From positions 1-64,000 of the forward strand of contig CAMPDV010001753.1 in assembly GCA_946699065.1 (NCBI GenBank): a stretch of DNA of 64,000 bases, written 5' to 3'. Positions 2,124 to 63,940 of this stretch are shown piece after piece. The translations under genes were made by a program, and so were the position numbers. Numbering within the stretch: the stretch's first letter is position 1; each line of letters opens with the position of its first letter. A model generated the notes under the pieces. It searched no databases and was not told the DNA's origin. It saw only the letters and a list, made by a program, of their open reading frames with translations. Origin of the DNA: Loxodes magnus (Eukaryota > Ciliophora > Karyorelictea > Loxodida > Loxodidae).

Positions 2124-4313
2124 ATTAATGGACTTACTAATTTCTTTGATATTTATCCAATTATTATTAATTTCTCATACAAGAGATAAAAAGGATTTCA
2201 TTCACTCTTAGGAATTATTTTGTCCATTTGTACTTATTTACTCTTTATACTATCTTTCATAAATATGGGATAAGATATGATACTCAAAAATAATCCAAGT
2301 GTCATTACTTAAACGATTAAATAAGATAAACGTCCTTGGCAATGAATCGGAATAAACAATTACACTTTTGCTTTCTTATTTACAAATGCTACCAATAATA
2401 TTATAGTTCCTCCTTCTTTTTTTATGATAGAAACTGGATATACTAAAGTTAATACTTCGGATTCTTTTAGTGACACATTTCTAACAACTTAATGTAATGA
2501 AAGTTTTTACTAAGGTTTTGAAGAGTAATTCAATAAAACTTTTCTGAATTATTAACAATCCACATGCTTCGCTTTAAATTCTTTTGAAATAGGAGGATGA
2601 TGAACTGAAATCAACATGAGCAGCATATGAATATAAGTTAAAGTGTGTAAAAACGAAACAAATTCAGAAATAAAATGTGCTCCAATAGATAAGATTGAGG
2701 AGTTAATCGCTAATTAACTATATTTAAATGTTTTATTCTCTGATAAAATAGTTGATGTCACTAATTACGAAAATCCAATTAAGAACATACTTAACACGTA
2801 TTATTGATCTCTAGATTTATATCAGAGTAAATATGCTTCCATTTTATTCAAACCTTTAGAAATAATAACAGATGATGGATTTTTGTTGGAGAATTAATAA
2901 ACGATTAAAGATGTCTTAATTGAAAAAACCTAAGTAGAAGCTATTTCAAATTAAAATTTACAATCTTCTTCCGTCTTTTTTCTTGAATTATATTCTTCTG
3001 ATAGCATACTTTAATATAAGAGACGATATAAAAAGGTTTAAGATGTGGTATCTTAAATAGGAGGTGTACTTAACATAATAATACTTTTAAGTTAAATTCT
3101 TGTAATAATATATTCTAAATATGCTTTCACATATAACTTTATAAATGATATCTTTGAATTTGAAGGTCTCTAAGAAAATATAGATTAAAGCTTAAAAGTA
3201 AAAAATAAACTGAATTAAAATACCTAGAATCAACAAACTTAAATTAATAATAATGAGAAAGAATCTAAGAGTTATTCTAAAGTGATCTAAATCTCTCAAT
3301 AACAAGAGTAAGATTGGAAAAAGGAACGAAAAAAGAAAACTAAAAGTAAATTACCTTAAATTACTCCTGAAAATAATTAAAATTAATTTATAAAAGAAGA
3401 ATAAAATGACATTTAAGAATAAGAAATTGGAATTCGATAGTTTATTAATAACTATTTAAGAAATAAATAAACTTAGATTATTGAGTCTAAGAATTATTTA
3501 GTTGACAAAAAATCCACTGCTAGTAATTTGAAAAATTTAAATTAAAATCCTACAAAGGAAAAAAATCCTAAAGAATAAATTAAATTTAAATTAAAATCGA
3601 TTTCATGCTAAAATGTAATTTCTTAACAAGAAATGGAAATATTTTCTAATACTTTAAACGAAAGTAATACTTAAGATCAAGAAGAAAATATTCAAGAATC
3701 TTAAGATAAAGAAAATATTGATTCTTTCAAGAATTTAGAACCTTTATAAACATCTAAGAGCTAAATAAATCTTCACATGTCTAGCGAATAAAAGAGTTAA
3801 TACTTTTAGTAAAAAGTAAAATAGAAAGATCATTTTAAAATTAACTTTTTCTAATTCTACTTTTATAAATTTCTTGGTCTCTTCAAAAAGAATTAACCTT
3901 TATTTTTAAATAAAAACCAGAAAAAACTTTTACTCTTAGAAAAAGCTAATGATACAATTCAAGATTATTTGTAAGCTGATTTTTTAGTAAAAAAGTTGAT
4001 AGAACTTGAGTAACTGAAAGCTATAATCTTCAATGAAGATTAGTTAACAGTTTTTAATTATGTCTCTAAACCTAAAATAAAGTTAAGTGAGATAAAATCG
4101 TAAGATAACTTCAATTTTGCGCTAACTCCTTCTTTAAAGCCGAATAAAAACTTTAAGTTCGAGAATAGTTAAGTTAATAAAGAACTAGATAAAGTAATAG
4201 AATTTTGTAGTTAAGTACTTAATAATGAAAGAGAAGATCCAAGAGACTTAAAGTTTTTTAATTTAATAGATGAATAGATTCTGAAGTATGTGGAGATGCA
4301 AAAGAGAGATTGA
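2124..4313 (+). CDS. Two-pass membrane protein, copy A (start codon lost)
   Basis: This is the first of five copies of a roughly 729-codon gene. The frame is continuous from 2124 to a TGA at 4311-4313 if TAA and TAG are glutamine and internal TGA is tryptophan. The codon aligned with the ATG of copies B, D and E is ATT here, and no upstream ATG exists in frame, so this copy may be silent or start further in. The predicted protein has a hydrophobic segment at about residues 28-46, then a roughly 260-residue lumenal or extracellular part with paired cysteines and N-E-T glycosylation-type sites. A second hydrophobic segment follows at about 315-333, then a charged glutamine-rich tail and a conserved C-terminal block (FLVKKLIELE). 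It resembles the large ciliate families annotated simply as transmembrane proteins; the function is unknown. In-frame TGA occurs at 2343, 2598, 2601 and 2805. Confidence 0.7.
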
Positions 4314-4488
4314 TAAGAGATTATTTTAATTTACTCAGTTAAAAATATGCTATTACAAAGAAATGTTATATAACATTATTTCTCTATCATAATAAAGAAT
4401 AATTGATTAATTTTAAATTTATTTTTAAATTAGTAATTTTTTATATTTTTTTACTTTAGTTTCCATTTATCTTTCAAAACGCGTAAAT

Positions 4489-4986
4489 ATGGAAAAGGGC
4501 ATTCGCAGAGATTTTCTCACAGATCCCAAAATGCTGAGACTATCAGCATCTTAGGAAGGATAGGATATGAAAAGAGCTCTAGAAAAATAATTCACTAAAT
4601 AGTGATCCGCCTCTTAAAAGAAGTCTAGAACTAAGAATATTATTCACTCGGAAATCTCTGACTTTACTGTGGAACAGCAGGCAAGCTATGAATAACTTAT
4701 TAAAGTAGTGTAAAGCCACCAGGAAGAGGTTAAATTTAAATAAATAAATAATAAATCTCTAATGGATAAACTATAGTCAGCAGAAAAATTGAATTTAGAC
4801 TAAAGTTCTAAGAAAGGGAACTTAATGCCTTCTAAAGCCTATTAAAACAATTAATCTTAAAATAAGCAATAATTAAAAAAGGATCTAATAGAAAAATAGA
4901 TGAAATAATAGAAATTAAAGAAAAAAAATTAAATTTCTCAAAAAAGCAAAGGATTAATGATGATAATAGAGGAAGATAAGATTTGA
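4489..4986 (+). CDS. Retrotransposon ORF1 (Gag-like), N-terminal part
   Basis: An ATG at 4489 opens a frame of 166 codons that contains one in-frame TGA (4603). The start (MEKGIRRDF) resembles those of the ORF1 at 61569 (MAEGFKSGF) and the fragment at 61705 (MPGFKEGF). A coiled-coil block (YEQLIKVVQSHQEEVK) matches QFIKVVLNLQEEVKRLKKDN in the 61.6-kb ORF1 and a similar block at 24.7 kb. A lysine- and glutamine-rich coil continues in other frames to about 5220, but no zinc knuckle is found. The start of this region is clearly richer in GC than its surroundings. I read it as a 3'-truncated or decayed nucleic-acid-binding ORF1 of a non-LTR element. Confidence 0.6.
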
Positions 4987-6550: not shown

Positions 6551-6659
6551 ATTAATTAATTAATCAGAGAATTATATCAAAAACTGAAGATAATTATTAG
6601 TGGTAGATTACCAGATATTAACAGACTAATTGATTGCCCTTCTGCTTAAAGGTAAAAGT

Positions 6660-6845
6660 TATTTGATTGTATTAAGTTCTTCTCCTAACTTCTCCCTATC
6701 TTGCATTAAATAAAAAATCTTACTTCTTTCTCCAGATTTTTCCAGTTCATTAGGGGTAAATTCAGTAACTATTTCTTTCAGTTCCTAGAAGCTTATATTT
6801 CGTCAGATGTTACTTCTTATTGAAAAAAAGATGGAAACTAATTAA
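6660..6845 (-). pseudogene. Short retroelement-like ORF fragment
   Basis: The minus strand has an open stretch with protein-like composition, including EIVTEFTPNELEKSGERSK and REKLGEELN. The TP-x-x-L pattern followed by a basic and helical region recalls the N-terminal modules of the LINE-1 frame at 8.85 and 9.75 kb and the fragment at 28.5-28.9 kb. It is too short to assign. Confidence 0.3.
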
Positions 6846-9740: not shown

Positions 9741-9960
9741 AAAATCCTTTCAAAAGAAAACATGAAGAAGATGGAATTTAAATTCCTCCAGTTAAATGTA
9801 CTATTGAATGAAAAAATGAAAGAGAAAGTGAAAAGATAATACGATAATAAAATTTTCAATCTCCTCAACTATAAAACTTTATCAGACAAAGTTTATGAAG
9901 GAGGAACTAATTTTAAATGAGTAATGTTCAAGGAAGGTATATAGCAATTAATAAAGAATT
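8846..9960 (+). repeat. Internal duplication of a LINE-1 module
   Basis: Two direct copies start near 8846 and 9748, about 900 bases apart. Both encode KRKHEED, then a proline pair with lysine, then PQLQNFI, RRNQ and a GRY motif, in the same order and spacing. The second copy runs on in frame into the endonuclease of ORF2 (ATG at 9917 lies in that frame). The first runs on for 200 codons of coiled coil. This may be two nested elements or a tandem duplication of the ORF2 5' end. Confidence 0.6.
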
Positions 9961-12900
9961 AACTCAAGGCACTATAGATAGTACCTAAAATGTTATTAAA
10001 ATAGACAATAAACTACTAGAATCTTATTCGATTTATGTAATTTACATTTTGATCTAATATTTCCACTAGCATCCTGAGTATAAAAAAGAACTGGTACATC
10101 CTTAAAGAGATTCATAAGGGACTAAATATATTTGCATATATTAGAGAGGACTCCCTGGTGGAGCGCAAGAATCTAAGAAAATAAAAATAGGACATGTAAA
10201 CATAAGTTCAATAGCTAGTAAACAAGAGGCATTATAATAATTCATCCTTGATAATGAATTTGACATTTTTTCAATAAACGAAACATGAACGTAATAAACA
10301 TATTGCCCAATTGTTATAGAGCAATATCATACCTATTACTAAAACACAAATAAACGAGCAGATGGAGTATGTCTATTAGTCAAAAAGTAACTTGATTCTT
10401 GTTAAAATGAAATTAGATTTCTCAAATCTTTATGGACATTTTATAAGCGTGAGGGTTGGAAATTTAATAATCGAATCATGTTATTTGCCTATAAATGAAA
10501 AGTCAAATATTTATAAGGACATTGCATATGAATACCTTAATAATATCATAGATAATAGTGGCCAGAACCCTACTATCCTTTGTGGCGACTTTATTGTCTT
10601 ATTTCCTAACTACGGTAATAATTAATCACAAATCAATAATAATACTTAAAGATTACTAGACTTTATAGAAACAAATGAATTAATAATTTTAAATGATAAT
10701 GAGTCCAATTCATTTATTCATAGAGCGAATAATTAATGATATTGAAATGACTACTTCTTGCAACTTAACATTTAGATTCTGATAATTTCGTTGACTATAA
10801 AGTTATCCAAGATCGGGTTTGCATACTGATCATTTTCCATTAAGTACTGCATTAAATTATAATTTAAAAAGAAGTGAATAAGATTAACAATAACGATTAC
10901 TCTTTAAAATTATAAACTATAGGATTTGGACACGAGAAGCTATTATTAAAATCTATTTTTGGGATAATTTTATCAATTCTAGTAATTTGATTAAAATGAT
11001 GTTGAAAATTAGTACTAATTCATCTGCGATCTTATTAGCTATAATGCTGAGATTGCGCTTGGATCTTAAAATAAAAGGAAAACTATTATCAATTGCCAAG
11101 TTACTCAGTTACGTTATTTTTCAAGCAAAAAAGGATAATATTGCAAATTAAAACGCATTAGCTTATTATGGACGTCATAATTAAGAAGTTACCAAACCTT
11201 ACTAGCTTAAATTTTAAACTTATAAGCGTTATCTTCACAAATTTTGGAAATTAAAAAATAAAAAGCTAAGGAAAAACATAAAGATCTTTACAAAAATGCT
11301 TAAATAATGTTTAAAAAGCTAAAAATCTAATAAACCCTAAAATTCATAATTAGATGAATTTTAACTTTAACTAACAACAGCAATTTATTGAAAATTGGGA
11401 AACTAACGTTTTTGATAAACATTCGAAAATAAGTAAGATAGAATTTGACTTCTCAAATAGAAAAATAGAGGGAATATTTAGAAATAAATCTTTTATCTTA
11501 AATTAGAAGTTAAGTCATTTATAAAATATGCCTCTTTTTACGTGATTTGAAATTAAAAAAATTATATCTTAGCTCGCAAATAATAAAGCTACAGGTAATG
11601 ATGGTCTAAAAACTGAACTTATTAAATATGGAGGTTAAGATTTGCATCAAATTATTGCAAGTTTCATCAATAATATGCTTAGAACATTTAAAATACCTAA
11701 TGCAATGAAAAAAATAAACATTCTTCCGATTTTCAAAAAGGGAAGCAAAAGTAATTGATGTAATTGACGACCTATCGCTTTATTGAACTGTCTACTTAAA
11801 ATTTATGATAAAGCACTAGCATAAAGACTTTATAATTATATTTATGAACGAAACATTTTACATCCAGCCTAATTTGGATTTATTCGTAAACGCTCCACTA
11901 CTTAGAAATTTGAACTATTTAGGCACCTGTACTTGCAGATTTATTCCATGATATTGTTATAAGATATTTAGAAGATAATCAGAAGAAATTAGGATTTCAA
12001 ATATTATCTAAAACTTTCGTAGTACGAGCCTTCGCTGACGATTTAATCCAATTGTTCTCTTCCTAGAAAAATGTCAAAAAATTATTACAAGCTACATCTA
12101 CAGTTTTTGATTGAGTAAAACTTACAATTAATGTAGCCAAATGTGAAGTAATAGAATTCTTGAAAAAAAATCAATGAAAAGAAAGCTAACCTTCTATTAA
12201 TATAAAGATCAACAGGATTCCAATTGCTTAAAAAGATGAAGTTACCTATTTAGGATATTAGTTAGGAATAAAGTAAAATTACAAATTACATTAAACAACA
12301 GTAGCTACCAAATACAGAGTAGCTATTTAAAAAGCTTCTGCAATACTTTCTAAATATGGATTAGTATCCCCTCTCAGCTTCAAAACTCTTTGTAGAACTT
12401 TTATTTTGCCTAAAGTTGAATATAGAAGTGATATTACTCCGTGAGCTACTATTTCTGGAATTAAAGGAATAAAAAGCAAGATAACAAAATCGTAAAGACT
12501 TATCTCAAGATAGGTGTTTAGATCTTAAGAATTCATATTCAATGAGTCATGTTTTATTGACCTAAACTGGCTTCCTTTTACACATATACCAACTAAAAAT
12601 TTAATGCACTTTTATTAAAAATTAATGTAATATAGCAAAGAAAATCCTAACTCAGATACTGCTTTTCTATTAGAAAAATGCACTAAATTTAATTTACCAT
12701 ACTAGAAAAATATAAAGAAATGTATAGATTTGTATAATTTTGACATGTCACATGTTTAGAGTAAGATGGATTTTTATAAACTCACAGAATAAAAAATAAA
12801 ACATAAATTCTTAATGGAATGTCTCTCTAGGAATACACTAATGCCAACAGCAAAAAGAATTATAGACTAAATAGAAAATAATTAAAGTGTATTTCCTGAA

Positions 12901-13373
12901 ATTACTTATACCAAATATAATAAACACTATATTAGAGAGACTATTTCTATTTATAAACTGAGGACTTTTTCTTATAATTTTCAATAAGAACTTAGTAATC
13001 GTCACATTAACGTTAGATATAGCATTATTTGCTTATGTGGCTAAGACTTTTATAAAACTGATCATATTTTTGATTTCTAATACTATGCAGACATTATTGA
13101 GGAACTTGAAAGTCATAAAGCTTTTAAAGAAAAAACAAGAAGAAACTAATTCTTTATGACTAAAACTATTTAAGCAAACATTTTTCAAAGAATCAAATTC
13201 CTAAAATAGACAAATTAATCGAAAGTTTTCATTCTAAATTACTAAAAAAGCTTATTGAAATGTTTAAACTACAAGATGAGCTTTTAGAAGATTTTCTAGA
13301 AGGAAAAAAAGACAAATTTCATCAAGACAATAAATAAAAACATATGATAGAGAAAGAACAAGAAGAAACTTGA
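9740..13373 (+). pseudogene. LINE-1 ORF2: AP-endonuclease and reverse transcriptase
   Basis: This is the largest retrotransposon gene in the window. It would nick the target and copy element RNA into DNA. The AP-endonuclease is seen as DIFSINET followed by TGA (10286), where the family has a conserved ETW, then ILCGDF near 10580 and a DHFPL motif near 10828. The reverse transcriptase shows ANNKATGNDGLKTELIKYGG (11575), INILPIFKKGSK, N-TGA-RPIALLN (11765), FGFIRKRST and the catalytic FADD (12031). The C-terminal domain has PKVEYR, a C-x-C-G..H zinc-like motif near 13035 and an acidic end closing at TGA 13371. It is frameshifted near 10388, 10745 and 11300. About 100 residues, including the first catalytic aspartate (motif A), are missing near 11925. 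It is therefore inactive. Confidence 0.85.
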
Positions 13374-16307: not shown

Positions 16308-18496
16308 ATGAATGGACTAATTAATTTCTTTGATATTTACCCAACGCTTATTAATTTTTCTTACAAGAGATAAAAAGGATTTCATTCCCTCTTAGGAATT
16401 ATTTTATCCTTCTGTACTTATATTCTCTTTATACTATCTTTTATAAATATGGGATAAGATATGATACTCAAAACTAACCCAAGTATCATTACTTAAACTA
16501 TTAAATAAGATAAACGCCCTTGATAATAAATTGGAACAAACAATTATACTTTTACTTTCGTATTTGCAAATGCAACCAATATAATAGTAGTTCCTCCTTC
16601 TTTTTTTACGATAGAAGCTGGTTATATTATGCTTAATTCTTCAGGCTCTTATAGCGATATAATTCCAACGATTTAATGCAATGAAAGTTTTTATAAAGGT
16701 TTCGAAGAGTAATTCAGTAAACCTTTACCAGAATATTATCTGACAAATTGCTTCGATTTAAAATCTTTTGAAATAGGAGGATGATGAACGGAAACTAGCA
16801 TGAGAAGCATATAAATTCAAATTTCGATGTGTAAAAATGAAACAAATTCAGAAATAAAATGTGCCCCAATAGATAAGATTGAGGAGTTAATCGCTAATTA
16901 ACTATATTTAAATGTTTTATTCTCTGATAAAATAATTGATGCCACTAATTACGAAAATCCAATATAGAACATACTTAACACGTATTATTGATCTCTAGAT
17001 TTATATCAGAGTAAATATGCTTCTATTTTATCCAAACCTTTAGAAATAATAACAGATGATGGATTTTTGTTGGAGAATTAGTTAACGATCAAAGATATCT
17101 TAATTGAAAAAACCTAAGTAGAGGCTATTTCAAATTAAAATTTACGAATTTCTTCCGTTTTTTTTCTTGATATTTTTTCTTCTGATAGCATACTTTAATA
17201 TAAGAGGCGATATAAAAAGATTCAAGATGTGGCTTCTTAAATAGGAGGTGTTCTTAATATAATAATACTTTTAGGTTAAATTCTTGTAACAATATACTCT
17301 AAATATGCTTTCACATATAACTTTATAAATGAAATCTTTGAATTTGAAGATCTCTAAGAAAACATAGGTTAAACCTTAAAAGTAAAAAATAAACTGAATT
17401 AAAATACCTAGAATCAGCAAACTTAAATTAATAATAGTGAGAAAGAATCTAAGAGTTAATATTAAGTGATTTCAATCTCTCAATAACAAGAGTAAGATTG
17501 GAAAAAGGAACGCAAAAAGGAAACTAAAAGTAAATTACCTTAAATTAATCCTGAAAATAATTAAAATTAATTTATAAAAGAAGAATAAAATGATTTTTAA
17601 GAATAGGAAATTGGAATTCGAGAGTTTATTAATAACTATTTGAGAAATAAATAAACTTAGGTTATTGAGTCTAAGAATGACTTAATTGACAAGAAATCCA
17701 ATGCTAGTAATTTGAAAAATTTAAATTAAAGCCCTACAAATGAAAAAAATCCTAAAGAATAAATGAAATTTAAATAAAATCTATTTCATGCTAAAATGTT
17801 ATTTCTTAGCAGGAAATGGAAGTATTTTCAAACACTTTAAGAGAAAGCAATATTTAAGATAATGAAGAAAATATTCAGAAATTTTAAGATAATAAGGTTA
17901 TTGATTCTTCTAAGAATTTAGAACATTTATAAACATCTAAGAGCTAAATAAATCTTCATATGTCTAGCGAATAAAAGAGTTAATACTTTTAGTAAAAAGA
18001 AAAAAAGGAAGATCATTTTAAAATTAACTTTTTCTAATTCTACTTTTACAAATTTCTTAGTCTCTTCAAAAAGAATTAACCATTATTTTTAAATAAAAAC
18101 CAGAAAAAACTTTTACTCTTAGAAAAAGCTAGTGATACAATTCAAGATTATTTATAAGCTGATTTTTTAGTAAAAAAGTTGATAGAACTTGAGAAACTGA
18201 AAGCTATAATCTTCAATGGAGATTAGTTAACAGTTTTTAATTATATCTCTAAACCTAAAATAAAATTAAGTGAGATAAAATCGTAAGATAACTTCGATTT
18301 TACGCTGACTCCTTCTTTAAAGCTGAATAAAAATTTTAATTTCGAGAATAGTTAAATTTATAAAGAACTAGATAAAGTAATAGAGTTTTGTAGTTAAGTA
18401 CTTAATAATGAAAGAGAAGATCCAAGAGACTTAAAGTTATTTAATTTAATAGACGAACAAATTCTGAAAGGTATGGAATTGGAGAAAAATGAATGA
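16308..18496 (+). pseudogene. Two-pass membrane protein, copy B
   Basis: It keeps the ATG (16308) and the family layout: first hydrophobic segment, cysteine-bearing ectodomain, second hydrophobic segment, charged tail and conserved C-terminal block ending at TGA 18494. A single-base deletion between about 17766 and 17790, where copy A reads TTTAAATTAAAATCG and this copy TTTAAATAAAATCT, shifts the frame before the C-terminal third. TGA occurs in frame at the RP-W, GG-W-W and YY-W tryptophan positions. At two further positions, where copy D has TGA, this copy has TAA. Confidence 0.75.
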
Positions 18497-22398: not shown

Positions 22399-23190
22399 AT
22401 GTTAAGAGTTTTGGAGTTCTTCGGGATTCCAACCGATTTCGCTCCGCCTTTTTTTTAACGTGGATGTATACCACGGCCTTTTTTTGAATGTGGGTGGCTA
22501 CCACAATGAATTTTCCATGTTATCACTTAATAATTTCTATTTATAAATTCCTGAGTCGGTTATTCAAAGTTTGTTTAACATCCTTCATGTTTTTATTTCT
22601 TCTCTTTTTTTCAATTTTTATCATTTTTAACAATTTTTTAATAAGTGATATTTCGACCTACAACATCAACAATTTTTTGTCTATTTTTTTTTATTCAACT
22701 AAGGCAAAATTAATTTTTCTATTTGTTCTATTCTTTTAATTAAACTTTTATCAACATTTTATTCTATATTTATTTCTTAATCTTTTGCTTAAGAAGGGAG
22801 GACTTCAATACTCATGTTTACCCCTTGTTTGAAATTATTTTAAGACTGAGTATAGAGCTATTGTTCTGTCACAATATTGTTTTATATAAGCTATTTCCTA
22901 AGAATTAATAGTTCGTTATTTTGATCCTCAATGTTATTCATAAGCTCTCTAATTCTTTCTCCTTGATTATATGTTTCTTCTTCATATTTAGAAATTAATT
23001 TTTTCATCTTTTCCATTTTAATTGAAAGCGAAGTGCTCTCATTTACTTGTCCAACCATTACTTTGCCTTCTGAAGAGGAGCTTGATAAGTGTTCCATTGA
23101 TTTCTACTTCTTCTCTAGTTCTTTGTTAGCTCTTCTTCTTGCGTTCCTTGCCTAATTTTTAGATAGTCGAATATTCTATTCCATTTCCAT
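22399..23190 (-). CDS. X-type ORF1: zinc-knuckle (Gag-like) protein, best copy
   Basis: From ATG 23190 the minus strand is open for about 264 codons if TGA is tryptophan. In order it has a basic start (RLSKNQARNARRR), a serine-acid stretch, a coiled coil (residues 55-100, RIRELMNNIEDQNN), a CCHC knuckle NCWCCRSKYHLLKNC (near residues 174-187), then KTWRMLNKLWITDSG and a C-terminal part ending IGWNPEELQ. The knuckle identifies it as a Gag-like nucleic-acid chaperone of a retroelement. Four tryptophans are TGA (for example 22666) and three are TGG. Homologues lie at 5.6, 24.8 and 27.7 kb. The exact end is unclear because the frame runs on into the AT-rich tail. Confidence 0.7.
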
Positions 23191-27704: not shown

Positions 27705-28509
27705 AAATTTAAAATAAATATTTGCGTACCCTGGGTTTTCAACTAGGTAGCAGCGGACAAATTTTTTCCGTGGTTGTATTCCACGTCCTTTTTTATAAGT
27801 GGGTGGTTACCACAAAGGAATCTCTTAGTTTTTATGAGTGATTTTTATTTATAAACTCCGAATTCAGTAATTCAAAGCTTATTTAGGTTTCTTCAGGTTC
27901 TTTGCTCTTCATTGTGCTTGAGTAGCCTTCATTCTTTGTAATGTCTTAGTAGGTGATATTTAGATTGACAGTACCAGCAATTTTTATATTACTTCTCAAC
28001 TTTCTTCTTTGGATAAATCTTTCTTTCTTATATCCCATCTCCTTTGCTTAGGTTTGAATCAAATTGTTCTTAACTTTATTTTTCTTAATGCACCTTTTAA
28101 TGTAAATCTTATTCAATAATCATTCTTTGTGATTATTTGAAGTTGGATTAAAACATTTCGTAATGTTAATTTTCTGTTATTAAACTATTTTTTATCAGTT
28201 TACTTTTAAGGATTGCAATTCGTTATTTTAATCTTCTAAGCAGTTCATTAGCTCCTGGATTTTTTCTCCTTGATTAAAGAAAATTTCTTCATATTTTGCA
28301 ATTTATGCTTTCATTTGTTCAATTTAATTTTAGAGAAATTTATTATTTTGAATTCCAGGATTAACTTATTCAGTAAGACTGACCATTACTTTTCCCTCTG
28401 AAGATGAGCTAGACTCTCGATTCTGTCTTTGTTTTTTTAGTTTCTCAGTAGTCGCTTGCTTCCTTGCTTTTTTTTAAAAATTCTTTGAAAGACGGATGCT
28501 CTACTCCAT
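27705..28509 (-). pseudogene. X-type ORF1, frameshifted copy
   Basis: From ATG 28509 the protein reads MEQSIRLSKN, then SSSSSEGKVMV and the coil KIQELMNCLEDQNN. A frame change before 28000 leads to a zinc knuckle NCWYCQSKYHLLRHY whose last Cys is Tyr, then RTWRNLNKLWITEFGVYK and TWNTTTE, ending near PSWKPRV. The first knuckle tryptophan is TGG (27974-27976), where the 22.4-kb copy has TGA. Confidence 0.65.
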
Positions 28510-29060: not shown

Positions 29061-31260
29061 ATGTCCTAGTGCCTTATAAGTTTACTAGATTTTTATCCTA
29101 CATAAATCTGTTTTAATACAAAGGAGCAAGAGGATTTTATACATTGATAGGAGTTATTTTTTCTATTTTAACATGAATTCTCTTTGTGCTGGCTTTTATT
29201 AACATGAGTTATGATATGATGCAAAAGAAAAATCCAGAAAATTTATCTTAGACTTTAAAATAAGAACATCGTCCTTGGCAATATATTGGAATAAATAATT
29301 ATAGCTTTTCTTTCGGATTTTCAACCCTAAAAAATATTGTTGAAATTACGTCTTCTTACTTCACCTTTGAAGCTGGATATTATTTATAAAATGGGGAGAA
29401 CCAATCATAGATACCAATTAAAATAAAGTAATGTGATATAAAATTCTTTAAAGGATTCGAAGATTATTACAATGATAGTTCTCTAAATTTTTAATTTAAT
29501 TAATGTTTAGATCTGGATACTTTCGAGTTGGGAGTAATATTGAAATGAAGAAATAATGAAAATTCTGTTTATAAAAGTAAAAATGTGCTAGAACTCGACA
29601 GACTCCGACATAACATGTGCTCCGCTAAGTGATATCGAAAATTTGATAGCTAATTAACTCTTTTTTAGTGTCTTTTTCACTGATAAATCTATAAATATTT
29701 CTGATTATGAGAATCCAATAAAGAATACACTAAATTAATTTTCATGGATGCTCGATACTTAATCCTTAAAATATGCTAATGTGTTATTCTAGCCTATTGA
29801 AATAGAGACTGACGATGGCTTTTTATTAGGAAATTCTAAAACTACCCGTGATGTTACTCTAGTCAAAGATAATATAGACTTTATCTCTAAAAATAAATTT
29901 TCTAATTCTGATTCTTTTATACTTTCTATCCAATCCTCTGACAGTTTTCTCTACTACTAGAGAAGATATAAAATATTTAAAACGTTGTTTCTTAAGTAGG
30001 TGGAGTACTTAATATAATATTTTTAGTATTTAAGATTCTTATCAGAATATATTCTAAATATGCTTTTGCTTATAGCTTTGTAAATGATATTTTTGATATA
30101 GAAGATCTCTAGGAAAACTAAAATAAGATTAAGATAAAAGATATTTCGCAATATTATTCTTATTAAAGCCAGAAAATAGAAGATTCTAGTTAGAATTTAA
30201 GGCATAAATCTTAAGCTGAGGAGATAGAAAAATCTTTTGAATAAAATGAGCTCTAAAAAAATACTCACTAGAAAGCGAGTAAATAAACTAATGTATTTCC
30301 TTATTAGGAAGAGAAATAAAACTAATCATTCTAAGAAACCTAAAATAAAAACAAAATAACTGAAATTGTAGATTTAGTTAATAAATAACTAAGCAACTAA
30401 GATCAAAAAGTAATTGACATTTATTCCAAGGACAATTTTAATTAATAAAAGAAAATTGAAGATAATTCTGGAGCTTAATTTTAGATGAAATTACTTGAAG
30501 GAGAAAATCCAGATACATATCGAAAATCCAACGAAACGGAAAATTTAAATTGTTCTAGCTTTCTTTAGTTAGAAGAAAGTAAATTGTTTTAAAAGTAAAA
30601 GCAAGAAATCAATAAGAAGAATAGCTAAAAAGAATTTAAAAGGCAAATTATAAATATCACTTAAGAAACTCCTATTTCTTAAATAGAAACGAAGAAAAAA
30701 GATAGTATAATAAAGTTTAAAATGTCATAAGAATAGAAGTAGAAATATATTAAATCAAATTTACGAACTGAAGATCCTTTAAAAATAAATTTTTTTAATA
30801 TTATTTTTTTAAACTTTTATATATTTGTAGAAATAAGGGAACAAACATAAAAGTAAAAAAATATTACAGAAAAAATTGAAATTTTTGATAAAGCATATGA
30901 AATCTTTTACAGCTATTTGGAAACAGATTTTTTGGTTAAAAAATGATAGAACTTGAAAAATTAAAAGCAATTATATTCAACGAAGAATAACTGGCAGTTT
31001 TTAATTTTATATCAAAACCAAAAATTAAAATTGATGAAGAAGCATTATAATAAGGATATGAAATTGCTTTATCTCCTTCTATTAAACTTTAAAGAGAAAG
31101 CTAAGTAACAAATTCAAGGAATTATAAAGAATTGGAAAAAATTCTTGACTTTTGCAATTAGATAATAAACAAAGAAAAAGATAATGAAATAGATATAAAA
31201 TTATTTAACTTGATAGATAAAAAGATTCTCAAGTATGTAGAAGTAGAAAAAGTTAAATGA
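29061..31260 (+). pseudogene. Two-pass membrane protein, copy C (divergent)
   Basis: This is the most divergent family member: same length and layout, low identity in the ectodomain and tail, conserved second membrane segment and C-terminal block ending at TGA 31258. Single-base shifts near 29105, 29590, 29985 and 30945 break the frame. It is informative because it keeps TGG at two positions where copy D has TGA (RP-W, and the YY-W position at 29745). Its sequence distance suggests the family duplicated long ago. Confidence 0.7.
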
Positions 31261-38911: not shown

Positions 38912-41098
38912 ATGAATGGACTTATTAATTTCTTTGATATTTATCCAATGATTATTAATTTCTCATACAAAAGATAAAAAGGATTTCATTCACTCTTAGG
39001 AATTATTTTATCCATTTGTACTTATTTACTCTTTATACTATCTTTCATAAGTATGGGATAAGATATGATTCTCAAAACTAATCCAAGTATCATTACTTAA
39101 ACGATTAAATAAGATAAACGCCCTTGATAGTGAATAGGAATAAATAATAACACTTTTGCTTTCGTATTTACAAATGCTTTAAGTAATATTATAGTTCCTC
39201 CTTCTTTTTTTACAATAGAAGTTGGATATAATATAATTAATTCTTCGGGCTCTTTTGGTGATATAATTCCAACAACTTAATGCAATGAAAGTTTCTTCAA
39301 AGGTTTCGAAGATTAATTTCATAAATCTTTTGCAAATTATAAAATATCAACATGTTTTGATTTAAAATCTTTTGAAATAGGAGGATGGTGAAATGAAGCC
39401 AACATGAAAAGCATATGAATACAAATTAAATCATGTAAAAACGAAACGAATTCGGAAATATAGTGTGCTCCAATAGAATAAATTGAGAAAATGATTGCAA
39501 AGAAACTATTTTTAACTGTTTTCTTCTCTGATAAAGTAGTTGATGCCACTAATTATGAAAATCCAATAAAGAGCATACTTAACACGTATTATTGACCTGT
39601 AGATATATATCAGACTAAATATACTTCTGTTTTATTTAAACCTTTAGAAATAATAACAGACGATGGATTTTTGCTGGAGAATTAATAAACAATTAAAGAT
39701 GTTTTAATTGAGAAAACATAAACAGAGACAATTTCAAATTAAAATTTACAAGTTCCTTTTATTTTTTTTCTTGAATTGTTTTCTTCTGATAGCATACTTT
39801 AATATAAGAGAAGATATAAAAAGGCTCAAGATGTGGTTTCTTAAATAGGAGGTGTACTTAACATAATAATACTTTTAAGTTAAGTTCTTGTAATAATATA
39901 CTCTAAATATGCTTTCACATATAACTTTATAAACGACATCTTTGAATTTGAAGATCTCTAAGAAAATATAGATTAAACCTTAAAAGAAAAAAGTATTCTG
40001 AATAAAAATACCTAAAAAAGCCAAAATTAAATTAATAATAGTGAAAAGAAATCTAAGAGTTATTCTAAAGTAGTTTAAATCTCTTAACAAGAGTAAGATT
40101 GGAAAAAGGAACGCAAAAAGGAAACTAAAAGTAAATTATCTTAAATTACTCCTGAAAATAATTAAAATTAATGTATAAAAGAAGAATAAAATGACATTTA
40201 AGAATAAGAAATTGGAATTCGTGATTTCATTAATAATTATTTGAGAAATAAATAAACTTAGATTATTGAGTCTAAGAGTGACTTAATTGACAAGACATAG
40301 ATTGTTTAAAATTTGAAAGGTTAAAATTAAAGTTCAAATGATGAAGAAAATTAGAAAAACTAAAATAAATAAAACTAAAAATCTATTTCATGTTAAAACG
40401 TTATTTCTTAGCAAGAAATGGAAGTTCTTTCTAATACTTTAAACGAAAGTAATATTTAAGATAAAGAAGAAAATATTCAGGAATCTTAAGATAAAGAAAA
40501 TATTGATTTTTCTAAGAATTTAGAACCTGTATAAACATCTAAGAACTAAATAAATCTTCACATGTCTAGCGAATTAAAGAGTTAATATTTTTAGTAAAAA
40601 GTAAAAAAGGAAGATCATTTAAAAATTAACTTTTTCTAATTCTACTTTTATAAATTTCTTAGTCTCTTCAAAAAGAACTAACCACTATTTTTAAATAAAA
40701 ACCAGAAAAAGCTTTTACTCTTAGAAAAAGCTAACGATACAATTCAAGATTATTTATAAGCTGATTTTTTAGTAAAAAAGTTGATAGAACTTGAGAAATT
40801 GAAAACTATAATCTTCAATGAAGATTAGTTAACAGTTTTTAATTATATTTCTAAGCCTAAAATTAAACTGAGTGAGATAAAATTTTAAGATAACTTCGAG
40901 TTTATGCTGTCTCCTTCTTTAAAGCCGTAGAAAAATTTTAAGTTCGAGAATTTTTAAGTTTACAATGAACTAGATAAAGTAATAGAATTTTGCAGTTAAG
41001 TTCTTAATAATGAAAGGGAAGATCCAAGAGACTTGAAGTTATTTAATTTAATAGATGAACATATTCTGAAGTATGTGGAATTGAAGAAAAGAGAATGA
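38912..41098 (+). CDS. Two-pass membrane protein, copy D (intact if UGA = Trp)
   Basis: ATG 38912 to TGA 41096-41098 is 729 codons in one frame. Hydrophobic segments lie at about residues 28-46 and 315-333. Between them is an ectodomain with several cysteines and N-E-T sites. The C-terminal tail carries TIQDYLQADFLVKKLIELEK near residue 610 and ends KYVELKKRE. Internal TGA occurs at RP-W (39125), Q-W-IG (39131), GGW-W (39389), SI-W-IQ and YY-W. Other copies have TGG at several of these. Under the ordinary Tetrahymena code the gene would stop at codon 72. The family looks like the expanded ciliate two-pass surface or membrane proteins; no function is known. About 110 bases upstream are shared with copy E. 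Confidence 0.75.
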
Positions 41099-51893: not shown

Positions 51894-51913
51894 TAAAGTA
51901 CGAAAAGAAAGAT

Positions 51914-52830: not shown

Positions 52831-54165
52831 TCTGTTTTTTTTAAACTTTTATATAAAATAAAAAATATTAGAAAATAAATAGATTAAATATAATTTAGCG
52901 ACTAAAGAAGGAAAATATTTAAATAGCCAGAAATACAAATGTTATATTCATACAAGCAACTAAAAATTAGTAATTTTATTAATTATAACAAAATTTATAA
53001 GAGAACATCTTATGAAATTTTAAAATTTATATGTATAAAAAAATCTTTAAAATTGAGAAACTTTTAAACATAATATAATAAAATATATTCATAAAAAGCA
53101 AAATTATTTTAAAAATTAAAGAAAATTCTCTTAAAAATACATAGAGAAAATCTAATAATGTTAAGTGCTAAAAAAACTAAATGGAAAAAGAAACTAATAA
53201 TTAAAATTATTAGATATTTCTATATTTCCAATGATTAAGATAAAATACAAATTTGGACATAGTAAAAGAAATCTTAGAAAAAATTTGCTATGAAAAAATT
53301 AAAACCCCTTTGAAGAAATCCCTTTTAGAACTCCTTTCTAATTAAAATAGAATTTGGTTATTAATAATTATAAAATGAACAAAACTTTTAAATTAAAAAT
53401 AAGAAAATAAAATTTAATTTTATTAATGGTTAAATATATTTAAAGTACCAAATAAAAAAATATTAAAATTTAAGAAATAAGAATAATGAAAAATAAATTT
53501 TAAACTTAAATAATTTAAATCATTGTGTGAAAATTATCTTCTTCTAAATAAATTAAAAATTTAAATTGCTTGTTTATGCTAAATTTAAGCATACAAAAAT
53601 TTAATATAAAATATACTAAAAACTAGCAAATTTTTATCTTTATTTAAATTATTTTAAAATTATAAAGTAGAAAAGTAGTTTTAAATTAAAATCTTAAAAA
53701 TAAATGCTACTCCAATATCAGTTTATAGACTAGATAATAACTTTAAAAATATTTAACTATATTAAATTTAAGAATTTAAGCAATTTTAAAATAAAATAAA
53801 TTTACTAAACTTGCTAAGTTAAGATTAATAATTAAAATAAATTACTCAGATTTCAGATTTTAATTCATTTTATTTTTAAATATGAGTAACAGAACCCAAT
53901 TTATAAAAAATTATCCATCACCTCCTTATCTATCAGAATAAGACAACGTACAAGTCATAGACATTTCTAAACATTTTTAACAACTAAAAATTTAATAAAA
54001 TTAAAGCAAAAAATAAAATTTTAGGGAGAATAATCTCTTTATAAAAATATTTTTTAAGAAAACCGAAATTTTATCTTTTGTTATCTTTTAGCTATTGAAA
54101 TAGTTATAAAAACTTAAAATTATCTTATTTTAAATATTATATTTTTAATTAAAATTGTTATTAAA
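52831..54165. other. AT-rich region without genes
   Basis: Thirteen hundred bases with no gene, repeat or structure that I can support. Confidence 0.45.
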
Positions 54166-56342
54166 TCATTCTCTTTTCTTCAATTCCACATACTTCAGAA
54201 TATTCATCTATTAAATTAAATAACTTCAAGTCTCTTGGATCTTCCCTTTCGTTATTAAGTACTTAACTACAAAATTCTATTACTTTATCTAGTTCATTAT
54301 AAACTTAACTATTCTCGAACTTAAAATTTTTATTCAGCTTTAAAGAAGGAATCAGCGTAAACTCAAAGTTATCTTAAAATTTTATCTCACTCAGTTTAAT
54401 TTTAGGCTTAGAAATATAATTAAAAACTGTTAACTAATCTTCATTGAAGATTATAGTTTTTAGTTTCTCAAGTTCTATCAACTTTTTTACTAAAAAATCA
54501 GCTTACAAATAATCTTGAATTGTATCATTAGCTTTTTCTAAGAGTAAAAGCTTTTTCTGGTTTTTATTTAAAAATAATGGTTAATTCTTTTTGAAGAGAC
54601 CAAGAAATTTATAAAAGTAGAATTAGAAAAAGTTAATTTTGAAATGATCTTTCTATTTTACTTTTTACTAAAAGTATTAACCCTTTTATTCGCTAGACAT
54701 GTGAAGATTTATTTAACTTTTAGATGTTTACAAAGGTTCTAAATTCTTAGAAGACTCAATATTTTCTTTATCCTAAGATTCCTGAATATGTTTTTCTTTA
54801 TATTAAGTATTATTTTCTCTTAAAGTGTTTGAAAGAACTTCCATTTCCTGCTAAGAAATAGCATTTTAGCATGAAATAGATTTTTATTTAAATTTAATTT
54901 ATTTTTTTCTAATTTTCTACATCATTTGAATTTTTCATATTACTATCAATTTATGTCTTATCAATTAAGTCACTCTTAGACTCAATAATCTAAGTTTATT
55001 TATTTCTCAAATAATTATTAATGAACTCCCGAATTCCAATTTCTTATTCTTAAATGTCATTTTATTCTTCTTTTATAAATTAATTTTATTTATTTTCAGG
55101 AGTAATTTAAGATAATTTACTTTTAGTTCCCTTTTTTTTGCGTTCCTTTTTTCATTCTTACTCTTGTTAAGAGATTTAAACTACTTAAAAACAACTCTTA
55201 AATTTCTTTTCACTATTATTAATTTAATTTTGGTGTTTTTATGTATTTTTATTCAGAATATTTCTTGGTTTTAAGGCTTAATCTATATTTTCTTAGAGAT
55301 CTTCAAATTCAAAGATGTCATTTGCAAAGTTATAAGTGAAAGCATATTTAGAGTATATTATTACAAGAATTTAACTTAAAAGTATTATTATGTTAAGTAC
55401 ACCTCCTATTTAAGAAGCTACATCTTGAACCTTCTTATATCTTCTCTTATATTAAAGTATGTTATCAGAAGAAAATAATTCAAGATAAAAAACATCAGAA
55501 TTTTTTAAATCTAAATTTGAAAAAGTTTCTAATTAGGTATTTTCAATTAAAACATCTTTAATTGTTTATTAATTCTCCAGCAAAAATCCATCGTCTGTTA
55601 TTATTTCTAAAGGTTTAAATAAAACAGAAGTATATTTAGGCTGATATAAATCTACAGGTCAATAATACGTGTTAAGTATGCTCTTTATTGGATTTTCATA
55701 ATTAGTGGCATCAACTACTTTATCAGAGAAGAAAACACTTAAAAATAGTTTTTTTGCAATCAGTTCCTCAATTTATTCTATTGGAGCACACTATATTTCG
55801 GAATTTGTTTCGTTTTTACAAAAGTTAATTTGTATTCATATGCTTTTCATGTTAGCTTCATTTCACCATCCTCCTATTTCAAAAGATTTTAAATCGAAGC
55901 ATGTTGATACTGGTATATTTATAAAAGATTTATGAAATTAATCTTCGAAACCTTAGTAAAAACTTTCATTACATTAAGTTGTTGGAATTATGTCACTAAA
56001 AGAGCCCGAAGAATTAATTATATTATATCCAGCTTCTATTGTAAAAAAAGAAGGAGGAATTATAATATAATTGGTAGTATTTGCAAATACGAAAGCAAAA
56101 GTGTAATTGTTTTTTCCGATTCATTATCAAGGACGTTTATCTTATTTAATCGTTTAAGTAATGATACTTGGATTAGTTTTGAGAATCATATCTTATCCCA
56201 TACTTATGAAAGATAGTATAAAGAGTAAATAAGTACAAATGGATAAAATAATTCCTAAGAGTGAATGAAATCCTTTTTATCTCTTGTATGAGAAATTAAT
56301 AATCATTGGATAAATATCAAAGAAATTAATAAATCCATTCAT
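54166..56342 (-). pseudogene. Two-pass membrane protein, copy E
   Basis: Minus-strand copy starting at ATG 56342 and closely related to copy D, including about 110 bases of upstream flank. It is intact over the ectodomain and both membrane segments. It is frameshifted near 54885, in the same AT-rich spot that is damaged in copy B, and again by a two-base loss near 54200. At the position where the plus-strand copies A, B and D have TGG in D-W-KK, this copy has TGA (55152-55154). It is the only member in inverted orientation. Confidence 0.75.
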
Positions 56343-58964: not shown

Positions 58965-60600
58965 AAAAAAATAAATAAAAAATAAATTCGATTATAAAGC
59001 GCTTAGCATCTCGTTGGTGCGCGACTCTTACAATATCTCAATATATATCCTTTTCTTCAAGTAAGCCTAAAAGTAATAGAAATTCTACTCTTATTAGTTA
59101 CATATCCTCATCATTTTCATCTATATTATCTGTTATTCTTCTGTCTTCTATATATCTACCTTTATTAGATCTTTATTGTAAACTTTCTTTATTTTTTCTT
59201 ACATATATTACGAATTTTCATTTATAATTTTTTCTTCTTAATCAAGCTTTTATAAACTCATAAAAATTATCCTTTTCCTCCTCTATAATCTTTTCTTATT
59301 TCTCTTTCCATTATATTTTTTTTAGATATCATTTTTTCTAGTATATTCATATAATCTTTTTTATCAATTTAACTTGAGATCTTTTTACTTTTCTTAGGTT
59401 CTAATGAATTTATCGAATTTGGCGTTACCTCATATTTTATAAAGTAGTTTCACTCCTTATCTTTCTACTCCTATTACTCTTAGATTTCAAATACATATTA
59501 TCTTTCTTCTTTGTATTCTGAACATTTTCCATGATATATCTTTCATCTTCACTTGCATCATTACAGAAAGAGCATTGGCTTGACATGACTAGGTGTCATT
59601 CTTTTAAGCAATCCTAGATCTCATTAATCTCGTTCTTATTCTAAATATGTAGCATATTTCTTCTGTTCTATTTTTATTGTATCTCAGTTAGTTGGGTCCT
59701 ACTACATATTCATCAAATCAAGTCTTTCTATACTGTAATCTTGTTATCATTTACTCCATATTCTTTCTCTATCTTCTACGTATACTCTATATTTTCAAAT
59801 TGTACGATTAATGTTTTCTTCCCTTTTTAATTATTATTACCATCATCTATAAATATATCTTTTTCCTCAATTCTTAATTCTAATTTTATTGCCTTTTAAT
59901 ATTTTTCAAATATAAATATCTTTTTATTACATAGGTAAAACATTAATCCTTCTACTGTTTTTCTTTAGTTACCTATTAGTTTGCCTCTTAAATGTTTTTT
60001 GCTATAGGAAATGTTTGAATTTCATAAACTATAGTTCATGTTCTAACATCTAATTTTGCCCTTAAAAAGGAACATCTATGATTGTTCGAAAAGATCTTCA
60101 CTTTATTTTTTCTAATTACTCGATTACTTATTTTTGCATAAATTATTCGTAATATGGGATCATTTCTATCCCATAAATGAAAACTGAGTTTACGAAAATT
60201 TTTTTCATTATTCCTACAATGTATGGTTTTAATCGCTTATTAATTGTTATTTTTCCCATTATTTATGTTAACATATTTTAAGCTGATTCTAATCTATTCT
60301 CCATGTTTTTTATCAAAACCTATGTTCTCTTTCATTATATGACCTAGATACTAAAAGGTATTTACTCTTTATATCCTTAAATTTTCCACATCGATAATAT
60401 TTCCAATATTTTCTCAGTCACTATTTTCTGCCGCTTTCTATATCATTCATTTTGCTTATCTGCAATTTCCAATTTATACTTTTCTGCCCATTAATTAAAT
60501 TTTCGATTAATTCCTACAATTATTCCTATTCATTTATTAAGGTTAGGTTTAATATTTTAAAAATACCAAAGAATATAATATATTAAGTTATAAAATTTAA
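58965..60600 (-). pseudogene. LINE-2 ORF2 C-terminal domain and 3' tail
   Basis: The minus strand shows QYLGHIMKEN near 60345, the motif that follows the reverse transcriptase palm in LINEs. It continues through RLKPYIVGIMKKIF, FIYGIEMIP and RTIIDVPFQ to R-T-TGA-TIVYEIQ (TGA at 60036). The remainder is charged and reaches a TGA at 59038 after LEEKDIY. The palm and endonuclease are missing, so the copy has an internal deletion. The tail GCGCACCAACGAGATGCTAA with AATTTATTTTTTATTTA ends the element near 58965. ORF1 lies 60 bases upstream. Confidence 0.7.
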
Positions 60601-60657
60601 TCTTATATAATAATAATATTAATTTTAATTTTTCCGTTTTAGGGATTTCCAACCCCG

Positions 60658-61569
60658 TCAGGAATACAGCAGTTCATGCTCCCTGGTGTTAAATATAAAA
60701 GTTCGGGTCGCCCAATTTTAGCGAGATTGGGAACATGGATTTTTCCAGGTTTTCCCTCCTTTAACTTGCCTTGGTTCCATCTTAATCTTGTATATTGAAC
60801 CATCCAGGTTGCAATATATTATTTTCATTCTTGCTTCTTCTTTTTTCTTCTTTTGTTGTTTTTTTATCCAATAGTTTCTTTATTTTTATTAGAATTTCTA
60901 ACACTTCCGATAAAAATGTCATACGCTTCCACAGTAGAAACATTTCTTTTTTATTTTGAATTATTTTCCTTGATTTGTTTGCTCTTTCTAGGCTTCGATT
61001 TCCATTTGTATAGCTCCAGTTTCACTTTACTCTTTCTTAAAAGTTTACAATTTCTCTTCTACTTATCCGAGTCTGTTATTCAGTTCAGTCTGTTTCTAAA
61101 GCTAATTTTAGGATTCGTTAGTCTGACTTTGTGAGATATTCCAAAAGGCACTAAGATCTCTTTCCTAGGACATAAGTCTTGACTCATCTCCTTCTGCTAG
61201 GTCTAGCTTTGCCATCAGCATATCATTGTCCTTCTTCAATCTCTTGACCTCTTCCTGGAGGTTCAGTACCACTTTGATGAACTACTCCATGCTCATCTGG
61301 CCAGAAGGGTTGAACTCTGATACCTCCTGGTGGAGAGCAGATTTCATCTGTTTCCTCGGTTTCTCGCTTGAGGTTGGAGTTTCTGTGTGTATATTCTTCA
61401 AGGTTGGCTTTCGTTCGTTTTGTTGGATTCCAAGTTGTTAGTTCAGTGTTGGTTAAGGTTGTGATAGAGAAGATTGTTAAGATTATTAAAACTTTGTTTC
61501 TTGCTTCCTCTCTTCCTTTTTGGCTTAGGAAGAGGTGGTATAGAAGCCTGACTTGAAACCTTCAGCCAT
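60658..61569 (-). CDS. LINE-2 ORF1: coiled-coil, CCHC zinc-knuckle protein
   Basis: ATG 61569 to TGA 60658-60660 is 304 codons in one frame. The order is a Ser/Gln/Lys-rich start (MAEGFKSGFYTTSS), a coiled coil (residues about 94-135, QFIKVVLNLQEEVKRLKKDN), a second coil (about 150-205) and a zinc knuckle with Cys210, Cys213, His218 and Cys223 (CFYCGSVWHFYRKC). A basic tail with CNLDGSIYKIKM follows. The knuckle and coil are typical of ORF1/Gag RNA-binding proteins of non-LTR elements. Trp217 in the knuckle is TGA (60919-60921) while the other four tryptophans are TGG. It is the cleanest ORF1 in the window and lies directly upstream of an ORF2 remnant. Confidence 0.8.
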
Positions 61570-61704
61570 TTTTTTTATTTTTATTTAATCTTATATAAAA
61601 CTTATTTATTTATATATGCTAAATTATTTCTATATTATTTAGTTTAATTATAAAATATATATGCTATAAAATTAAAAACTTTTTATATAATTATTATATA
61701 TATA

Positions 61705-61836
61705 ATGCCAGGCTTCAAGGAGGGTTTTTTACTATCTCCTCAGAGTAGAAAAAGAAAAACTGAAGCATCCTCTTCAGCACATCTTAGCTTCAATTGGACA
61801 ACTCTTATTTAGATAAAATAGATTATCATAAATTGA
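61705..61836 (+). CDS. Short ORF1-like N-terminus
   Basis: ATG 61705 to TGA 61834, 43 residues, starting MPGFKEGFLLSPQSRKRK and continuing TEASSSAHLSFNWTT. The start resembles MAEGFKSGF of the gene diverging from it on the other strand; the two ATGs are 135 bases apart. It is probably the 5' remnant of a second, inverted ORF1, cut off after 40 codons. Confidence 0.4.
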
Positions 61837-62544
61837 TTATCGAAACCTCCTAGATATACGAAAATAAAATAGCCAAATATCCATATAATTTATTCTTAAA
61901 GAATAAATTTAATACTTTATAAATAACTTTAATATATTAAGATATTAAAATAGTAACTTCAAAATCGAAATTAGCAATCATCTTAAGCTATTAGAGTTTA
62001 ACTAGAGAATTGTGCAGATAGAAGAAAGTTAAACTAATTCACTGAGATTACTGAGAGATTGTTTCTAAAAAGTCTTTCTCACAACAATCCAATGGATAAA
62101 GAGTTAGCAATGTAAACAAAAAAGGAAATAGAATAAATAAAAACTTAAATGCTGATTTTACCAAAATTTTGGGTGTTTTGTAAGAAAATGTTGTAAATTC
62201 TAAAATAAAAAAAATGCAGAGAATGTGAAACTTCAAAAAATATGAAATAAACTAATCAGATTGTATGTTACCACAAAAGGGTAAAATTTATAAACTTAAG
62301 ATAACAAACAAAAACATTAGCAATCAAGTTGTAAAAATAAAAAAACTTGATTCTATAATTCTTAGATTATATAAACTAGCTTTTCATTTAATTTATATAT
62401 ACTTATTGTTAATTATTTAAAAACATAAAATTATAATTTGTTATAAAAAATGAACAATATAAGACTAGGAAAACTTAAAATATATTTAATATTTCTAAAA
62501 TTAAAAAAATTTAAATTAATTGGTTTTATATTTTAATATGAGAA
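61837..62544. other. AT-rich spacer with a 3'-UTR-like direct repeat
   Basis: No gene is supported. About 62133-62212 matches 63921-64000 (AAATGCTGATTTTACC against AAATGCTTGATTTTCAT, then TTTTGTAAGA and AATTCTAAAATAAA). Because the second copy directly follows a LINE-1 end, the first may be the 3' untranslated remnant of another LINE-1. Confidence 0.45.
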
Positions 62545-62765
62545 TAAGATTAATATTAGAAAGTTAAAAATTATCCTAATATATTATATAGTATATAAAC
62601 ATTACAGAGATAAAGTATATACGTATGATAAAAAAAGATTAATATTATTTATAATTTAAATTATAGCAAATATTACTTTCTTAATTTATTTATCTTACTA
62701 ATCATCTTGTATAAGTATTAGTTTAAATTAAATTCCTTATTAGAAAGTTAAAAGTAAATAGATTT
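62545..62765. repeat. Third copy of the duplication's first block
   Basis: Matches 55-300 and 35870-36110 (ATATTAGAAAGTTAAAAAT.ATCCTAATATAT and following bases). The match stops where the LINE-1 fragment begins at 62766, so the LINE probably inserted into, or was joined to, this block. Confidence 0.6.
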
Positions 62766-63940
62766 CACGCTCCCTAAAGTTGAATATGGAGGAGAATTAA
62801 TACCTTGAGCAATCTAAAATGGAGCTACTAGAACACTAAATAAAATTGACAAAAGTATGAGATTAATAGCAAGGAAAGCCTTTTAAGCACCTGAAAAAAC
62901 TTTTAATGAGTTCTGTTATATAGATCTTAACTTAATGCCATTTAATCTTATTATGGCTTGTAAGTTTTTTAGATTTTTTTATAAAATACGATAAGAAAGT
63001 ATTAACCTTCCATAATCAACATTAGGGACTCTGTTTATGAATAATTGATAGGAAGGATATTAATATAGAGATTAATTAACAAGATTATCTGAATACTACG
63101 AAATTGACTTTAATAATTAGGAACATAATAGTAGCTTAACTACCTTTACGAAATATGTAAAGAACTATATTCTACATAAATTCTATAAAGTAACTTAGTA
63201 AAGACTTAACAGTATGCCAACTGCAAAGATTTTTATAGAATAATTTTGTAACTAACGATAATTCCCAGAAATTACCTATCCTAAACTAAATAAATAATAT
63301 AGAAAAGAAATAATTAGTATATACAAACTCAGAACTTAAACCTGCAACTTTCAGAAAGATTTTCAAGACAGACATTACCTTATCGAGAATCCTCACTGCA
63401 TCTGTGGAGAATTGGATAAATTCCAACATATTATTGATTATAATTGTTACATAGATATAAGAGAATGGCTAATAAAAAAGATTGAATAAGGTGATATAAG
63501 AAGATTAATAACCTATAATTAAAATTATATCAATTAATTCCAAAAAAAAGATAGAATATATAGATTTACAAGATAAAATTTTCCGTAGAATGCTGCTCAA
63601 AAGGAGATTGGAATTATTCAAACTGGAAAAAGATGAATGATTGGAAAGTCTGGATTCTAAGGAAGAGGAAGTAAAAGGCCAAGAAAATAGCGAAGAGGAT
63701 GAGGAAGATAATGAAGAAAAAGAAGAGCTAGAAGAACTAAAAGAGTAAGTGGAAGATTAGAAGGAATAAAATGATAATTAATATGATCAAGCTGAAGTAG
63801 AAGATGAAGATGAAAGGGAGATGAAAAACTTATTAATAATTCTATAACATCTTTAATTGAAGGAAGTAATTCTAACAATTAAAAATGTCACAAAACTATT
63901 TTAATTTAGTTTAAGTTTAAGGAAAAATCTAAATGCTTGA
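62766..63940 (+). pseudogene. LINE-1 ORF2, 3' half
   Basis: Starts within the thumb region at LPKVEYGGELIP-TGA-AI, matching LPKVEYRSDITP-TGA-A at 12.4 kb; both copies write the tryptophan as TGA. It continues through FNEFCYIDLNLMPFN, MPTAKIFIEQ, FPEITYPKLNK, IISIYKLRT and the zinc-like HCICGELDKFQHIIDYNCY, with few breaks until about 63580. A frame change then gives a strongly acidic tail (DSKEEEVKGQENSEEDEEDN) ending at TGA 63938. The acidic tail is longer than in the 13.3-kb copy. No catalytic domain is present. The 3' flank reaches the end of the window. Confidence 0.75.

Follow-up and report, generated by a model that had tools for sequence, protein, structure and literature searches.

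UGA codons at tryptophan positions in a repeated gene family, LINEs and tubulins of Loxodes magnus are consistent with the ambiguous code of the host

The first 64,000 nucleotides of contig CAMPDV010001753.1 of the karyorelict ciliate Loxodes magnus (C1753:1-64000; hereafter the window) contain five copies, c1 to c5, of a family of membrane-protein genes, a decayed long interspersed nuclear element (LINE) with recognizable parts of its second open reading frame (ORF2), a second LINE, and copies of a zinc-knuckle ORF1 (Table 1). TGA stands repeatedly at tryptophan positions in these elements, and a preliminary description of the window proposed that UGA is read as tryptophan in the retroelements and the membrane-protein family; all 16 of the codons named there that we checked (16/16) carry the letters it gave. 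A codon-usage scan of the window picked up mainly the membrane-family copies. Pfam searches with the membrane protein gave no match in the library used, and PF27811 is annotated on its database relatives; on the LINE, Pfam returned only Exo_endo_phos_2, below the cut-off. ARAGORN and Rfam (gathering thresholds) returned nothing in the window, and no tandem telomere-type repeat was found there with the strings tried.

Table 1. Features of the window and codons at the positions under discussion. Column numbers refer to the codon alignment of the membrane family, and column counts to its 27 non-redundant copies.
Feature	Position	Strand	Remarks
Membrane-family copy c1	2124..4313	+	ATT as first codon, without an ATG at that point; TGA at five internal codons and at the end; TAA/TAG read as Gln
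Membrane-family copy c2	16308..18496	+	Second half frameshifted
Membrane-family copy c3	29061..30946 (limits approximate)	+	Divergent (69% identity to c4), frameshifted
Membrane-family copy c4, reference copy	38912..41098	+	Single frame from ATG to terminal TGA under table 27
Membrane-family copy c5	54160..56342 (lower end approximate)	-	Second half frameshifted
Column 72 (RP-W)	39125..39127	+	TGA in c4; TGG in c1 at 2337; TGA 23, TGG 4
Columns 159-160 (GG-W-W)	39386..39391	+	TGG TGA in c4; TGA TGA in c1 at 2598 and 2601
Column 228 (YY-W)	2805..2807	+	TGA in c1; TGG in c3 at 29745; TGA 22, TGG 5
Column 397 (D-W-KK)	55152..55154	-	TGA in c5; TGG in c1 at 3315; TGG 20, TGA 7
Column 729, terminal TGA, stop	41096..41098	+	TGA in 26/27 copies, no TGG
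Decayed LINE ORF2 (endonuclease and reverse transcriptase)	9902..13100 (limits approximate)	+	Broken over several frames
ETW, endonuclease	10286..10288	+	TGA; fetched copies TGA 6/9, no match in the other 3
N-W-RPI, reverse transcriptase	11765..11767	+	TGA; fetched copies TGA 9/9
FD-W	12112..12114	+	TGA in window; fetched copies TGA 20/20 (alignment columns counted)
RT-W of second LINE	60036..60038	-	TGA (read in window only)
ORF1 zinc knuckle, residue after first Cys	22666..22668	-	TGA
ORF1 zinc knuckle, equivalent position in another copy	27974..27976	-	TGG

The codon comparison of the membrane family drew on a search of the whole assembly (705,730,643 bases in 7843 contigs) with the first 1089 bases of copy c4, which returned 291 candidates, of which 40 were scored; 40 copies were compared, five from the window and 35 fetched. 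Twelve copies whose codon identity to a retained copy was 98.5% or more were dropped and the divergent c3 was set apart, leaving 27 non-redundant copies. Family members occur in opposite orientation on several contigs. Seven internal columns of the alignment (72, 74, 159, 160, 169, 228 and 397) are dominated by TGA and TGG, and their 189 cells contain 135 TGA, 45 TGG, 7 TAA and 2 TTA. Columns 72, 159, 228 and 397 hold solely TGA or TGG; column 159 has TGG in 16 copies and TGA in 11, its neighbor 160 has TGA in 24 and TAA in 3, and a single TGG occurs in column 702. Changes were placed on the copy tree by a crude unweighted parsimony with arbitrary tie-breaking, the c3 branch being left out, and include 13 interchanges between TGA and TGG. 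All six changes away from TGG lead to TGA and none to TAG, while the 13 changes away from TGA comprise seven to TGG, five to TAA and one to TTA. The preliminary description had named a codon alignment of the copies as a check of its proposal, and this alignment came out in its favor, four of the seven columns holding TGA and TGG alone. The same parsimony yields an approximate ratio of nonsynonymous to synonymous rates (dN/dS) of ~0.31 under NCBI translation table 27; the membrane family is under purifying selection.

An outside relative (P0002; identity 39% in the alignment and 45% in the local match) carries Trp in three of the seven columns (72, 160 and 228), with Phe in column 159 and Tyr in column 169, and its end falls a few residues short of column 729. 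Together, the column pattern and the residues of this relative indicate that internal TGA is tryptophan and that the last TGA is a stop.

The genome search with the LINE returned 1594 candidates and scored 40 of them. At the ETW, N-W-RPI and FD-W sites the fetched LINE copies show no TGG, so the LINE offers no test of TGA/TGG exchange; because its TGA codons are common to the copies, we take them to have been present in the source element. The window copy of the LINE is without ~250 bp found in other copies between N-W-RPI and FD-W (window 11860-11930). The ORF1 evidence, drawn from copies within the window, is weaker: the knuckle codon is TGA in one copy and TGG in two, and at two nearby columns a pair of copies has TGA against TAG or TAA in the remaining one.

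Could these TGA codons be nothing other than G-to-A decay of TGG in dead copies, never read by a ribosome? The preliminary description had itself set this as a possible refutation, and decay does occur: many membrane copies are frameshifted, the LINE copy is split among several frames, and the five changes of TGA to TAA on the membrane tree fit the same process. Among 21 aligned LINE rows, one Arg codon is CGA in 15 and TGA in 4, showing that decay also creates TGA. Decay of TGG, however, would be expected to give TAG as often as TGA, and all six inferred changes went to TGA, with seven in the reverse direction. A dN/dS of ~0.31 is likewise at odds with dead copies, the tested codon is TGA in each LINE copy where its site could be located, and host tubulins show the same exchange (see below). 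We consider it very unlikely that decay alone accounts for the pattern.

The terminators bear on a second alternative, a code of the Condylostoma type (NCBI table 28), with UAA and UAG as additional terminators. Internal decoding would look identical under such a code, and the discrimination lies at the gene ends. In the two gene families examined, the terminators seen are TGA, in 26 of 27 membrane-family copies and in both of two near-identical genes for the release factor eRF1 on contig C196 (L108 and L109), which makes table 28 as improbable an explanation as decay. The codons preceding the stop are also distinctive. Over the final 20 codons of the membrane family, none of the 529 cells is TAA and 16 are TAG, whereas TAA fills 1237 of 16902 cells in codons 1-629. 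The Loxodes study reports a depletion of UGA and UAA, though not of UAG, over ~20 codons before the stop (PMC11441545). The membrane family shows this published depletion pattern, and provides a single gene family in which the absence of UAA near the stop is displayed.

To place these elements against host genes, we turned to tubulin and eRF1. A search for tubulins returned 150 scored matches that carry TAA or TAG in frame, and in many cases TGA as well, and 15 of the 150 were fetched, 13 of which were selected for holding TGA. In these 15 sequences, column 19 has nine TGA, five TGG and one Leu, and column 99 has nine TGA, one TGG and five Leu, Tyr or Phe, so that 18 of all 26 TGA codons and 6 of all 8 TGG codons lie in the two columns; we take them to be Trp21 and Trp101 of beta-tubulin. 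At both tryptophan columns, one tubulin (L106) has TGG where its close relative (L095) has TGA. This exchange in host tubulins indicates that the code change is general and not peculiar to mobile elements. The reading of UGA as tryptophan in the preliminary description is thus upheld by the membrane-family columns, the tubulins and the outside relative, whereas its restriction to retroelements and one membrane family does not hold. Tubulin-domain copies are numerous on each of contigs C64, C441 and C237, with a regular run on C441 at intervals of ~3.3 kb.

The two eRF1 genes on C196 differ from the best-matching solved eRF1 around the motifs for codon recognition: the TASNIKS region reads GRAQNIKS in place of GTASNIKS, the YxCxxxF motif reads FLCENTF in place of YLCDNKF, and Ala replaces the Ser of the solved structure's VNRLSVLG. 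The first match to the eRF1 family, on contig C2 (L107), was set aside because it looks like Pelota, on motifs that we presume to be those of that protein, and the C196 genes were used.

The tubulins also decide against a Tetrahymena-like host in which UGA is the sole stop and only germline-limited elements read it as tryptophan. An AT-rich window with TAA and TAG as Gln and a LINE would suit such an arrangement, but TGA at the tryptophan columns of tubulin and the existence of tRNA-Trp genes with a 4-bp anticodon stem (see below) contradict it, and we regard it as even less probable than decay or table 28. Equally remote is a reading of UGA as Cys (as in Euplotes) or selenocysteine, meanings that UGA has in some organisms. 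The seven membrane-family columns exchange TGA with TGG, TAA and TTA and not with TGT or TGC, and in five of these columns the residue of P0002 is Trp, Phe or Tyr. All four alternatives are rejected on the evidence bearing on each.

Several observations nevertheless weigh against tryptophan as the meaning of every internal TGA, or dilute the evidence for it. In columns 74, 160 and 169 of the membrane family, TGA is found in 24 of 27 copies each, and the remainder are TAA or TTA, never TGG; lone TGA codons appear in columns 392 and 659 (among TAA) and 452 (among ATT). In the outside relative P0002, column 74 is His, and column 397, where the alignment is poor, is Gln. The depletion of TAA before the stop does not represent 529 independent cells, since the 27 copies are related and their depletion is the signature of one family. 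In the tubulins, the best 30 of the 150 rows contain no TGA, and the remaining 8 of the 26 TGA codons are scattered, one per column. The tryptophan codons of the eRF1 genes are all TGG, and one tRNA-Trp gene on contig C67 retains an intact 27-43 pair in its anticodon stem.

These observations are set against a code already described for the host. Karyorelicts use NCBI table 27, in which UGA is the sole stop and also tryptophan, according to the text available for the Loxodes study, which also gives 706 Mbp for the macronuclear (MAC) assembly of L. magnus and reports LINE copies in the thousands (PMC11441545). The features of that code are found here: UGA is tryptophan internally and a stop at the end, and in the membrane family UGA and UAA, not UAG, are depleted before the stop. 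The reading of UAA and UAG as Gln is likewise borne out, TAA and TAG occurring throughout conserved frames and aligning at several places with Q of the solved eRF1; for UAA, it also fits tRNA-Gln genes with a TTA anticodon. Judged from the sequence, it is very probable that the window is L. magnus nuclear (MAC) DNA on table 27 and that its mobile elements and membrane family follow the code of the host. Compared with the karyorelict code as described for L. magnus and Parduczia, the assignments are the same (UAA and UAG for Gln, UGA for Trp inside and for stop at the end), as is the absence of TAA, but not of TAG, just before the stop; no difference was found. Here the pattern is carried by a multicopy gene family, a LINE and tubulin genes of the host. 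The Tetrahymena code (table 6) shares UAA and UAG as Gln and UGA as stop but does not read UGA as tryptophan, and does not fit this genome.

The pattern of UGA as tryptophan is therefore real and, being already published for the host, expected rather than anomalous. The preliminary description had called it unexpected by comparison with Tetrahymena, and its surprise arose because the wrong host was assumed; the host is L. magnus, with UGA as tryptophan or stop under table 27. With it falls a false lead, the idea that germline mobile elements in Tetrahymena have a code of their own. The genetic code itself is not new, and what is added is a LINE and a large multicopy gene family that very probably follow the host's ambiguous code.

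How a UGA codon might be assigned one meaning or the other led us to the tRNA genes. A tRNA-Trp pattern gave 130 matches genome-wide and none (0) in the control, and all 100 of the 130 matches listed have the anticodon CCA; among these, three lie on contig C110 and the others on C67 and C148. The preliminary description had suggested a tRNA-Trp with a UCA anticodon, and the single pattern used for it found no exact match, although a differently shaped gene could escape that pattern; with one mismatch allowed it gave 127 matches, of which the 100 listed are CCA genes. We read 73 distinct tRNA-Trp genes from the fetched stretches (28 on C67, 42 on C148 and 3 on C110), with the stem pairs read by position, as RNAfold does not yield a cloverleaf. 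In 69 of the 70 genes on C67 and C148, A.C or T.C stands at positions 27-43, which shortens the anticodon stem to 4 bp; the three on C110 (3/3) have a 5-bp stem.

According to the available texts of two studies, UGA is read in Blastocrithidia and Condylostoma by a tRNA-Trp(CCA) whose anticodon stem has 4 bp, a form also found in Loxodes (PMC13092985, PMC12005148), and the text available for a third reports that no tRNA-Trp(UCA) was found in the Condylostoma nuclear genome and proposes stop recognition near transcript ends for Condylostoma and Parduczia (PMC4967479). By analogy, the 4-bp-stem tRNA-Trp(CCA) of L. magnus would read internal UGA by near-cognate pairing, and eRF1 would outcompete this tRNA only near the 3' end of the mRNA, as the papers propose for related cases; in such a table 27 model, the meaning of UGA would be set by the distance to the poly-A tail. 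As far as those texts describe the tRNA-Trp of Blastocrithidia nonstop and Condylostoma magnum, the Loxodes genes agree with it in the CCA anticodon and the broken 27-43 pair at the top of the anticodon stem, the one UCA pattern used here having given no exact match, and differ in lying in two tandem arrays beside a few 5-bp genes.

These arrays occupy C67:482293-491400 and C148:157282-173068, with units of ~187 and 241 bp. One possible, tentative interpretation is that the 4-bp-stem tRNA-Trp(CCA) has been amplified in two homogenized arrays, with a few 5-bp copies kept, and that its dosage helps the tRNA against eRF1 at internal UGA. Tandem arrangement is not special to tRNA-Trp, however, which weakens the dosage interpretation: a pattern for tRNA-Gln gave 367 matches (control 0), of which the 100 listed have TTA or TTG anticodons and are dispersed apart from one run, and that run, at C214:232598-237602, is a tandem series of genes with the TTA anticodon and a unit of ~275 bp. 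We found no description of the tRNA arrays in the texts consulted, and do not claim that they are unreported; the word tRNA is absent from the main text of the Loxodes paper (PMC11441545), and a literature search on tandem tRNA genes in Loxodes brought up two papers, which by title and abstract seem unrelated. With its 4-bp genes in arrays and its 5-bp genes as singletons, tRNA-Trp(CCA) offers a clean comparison for testing how UGA is read. Both tRNA-Trp arrays end within their contigs, and one further tRNA-Trp(CCA) copy, in the opposite direction and counted among the 70, lies beside the array on C148.

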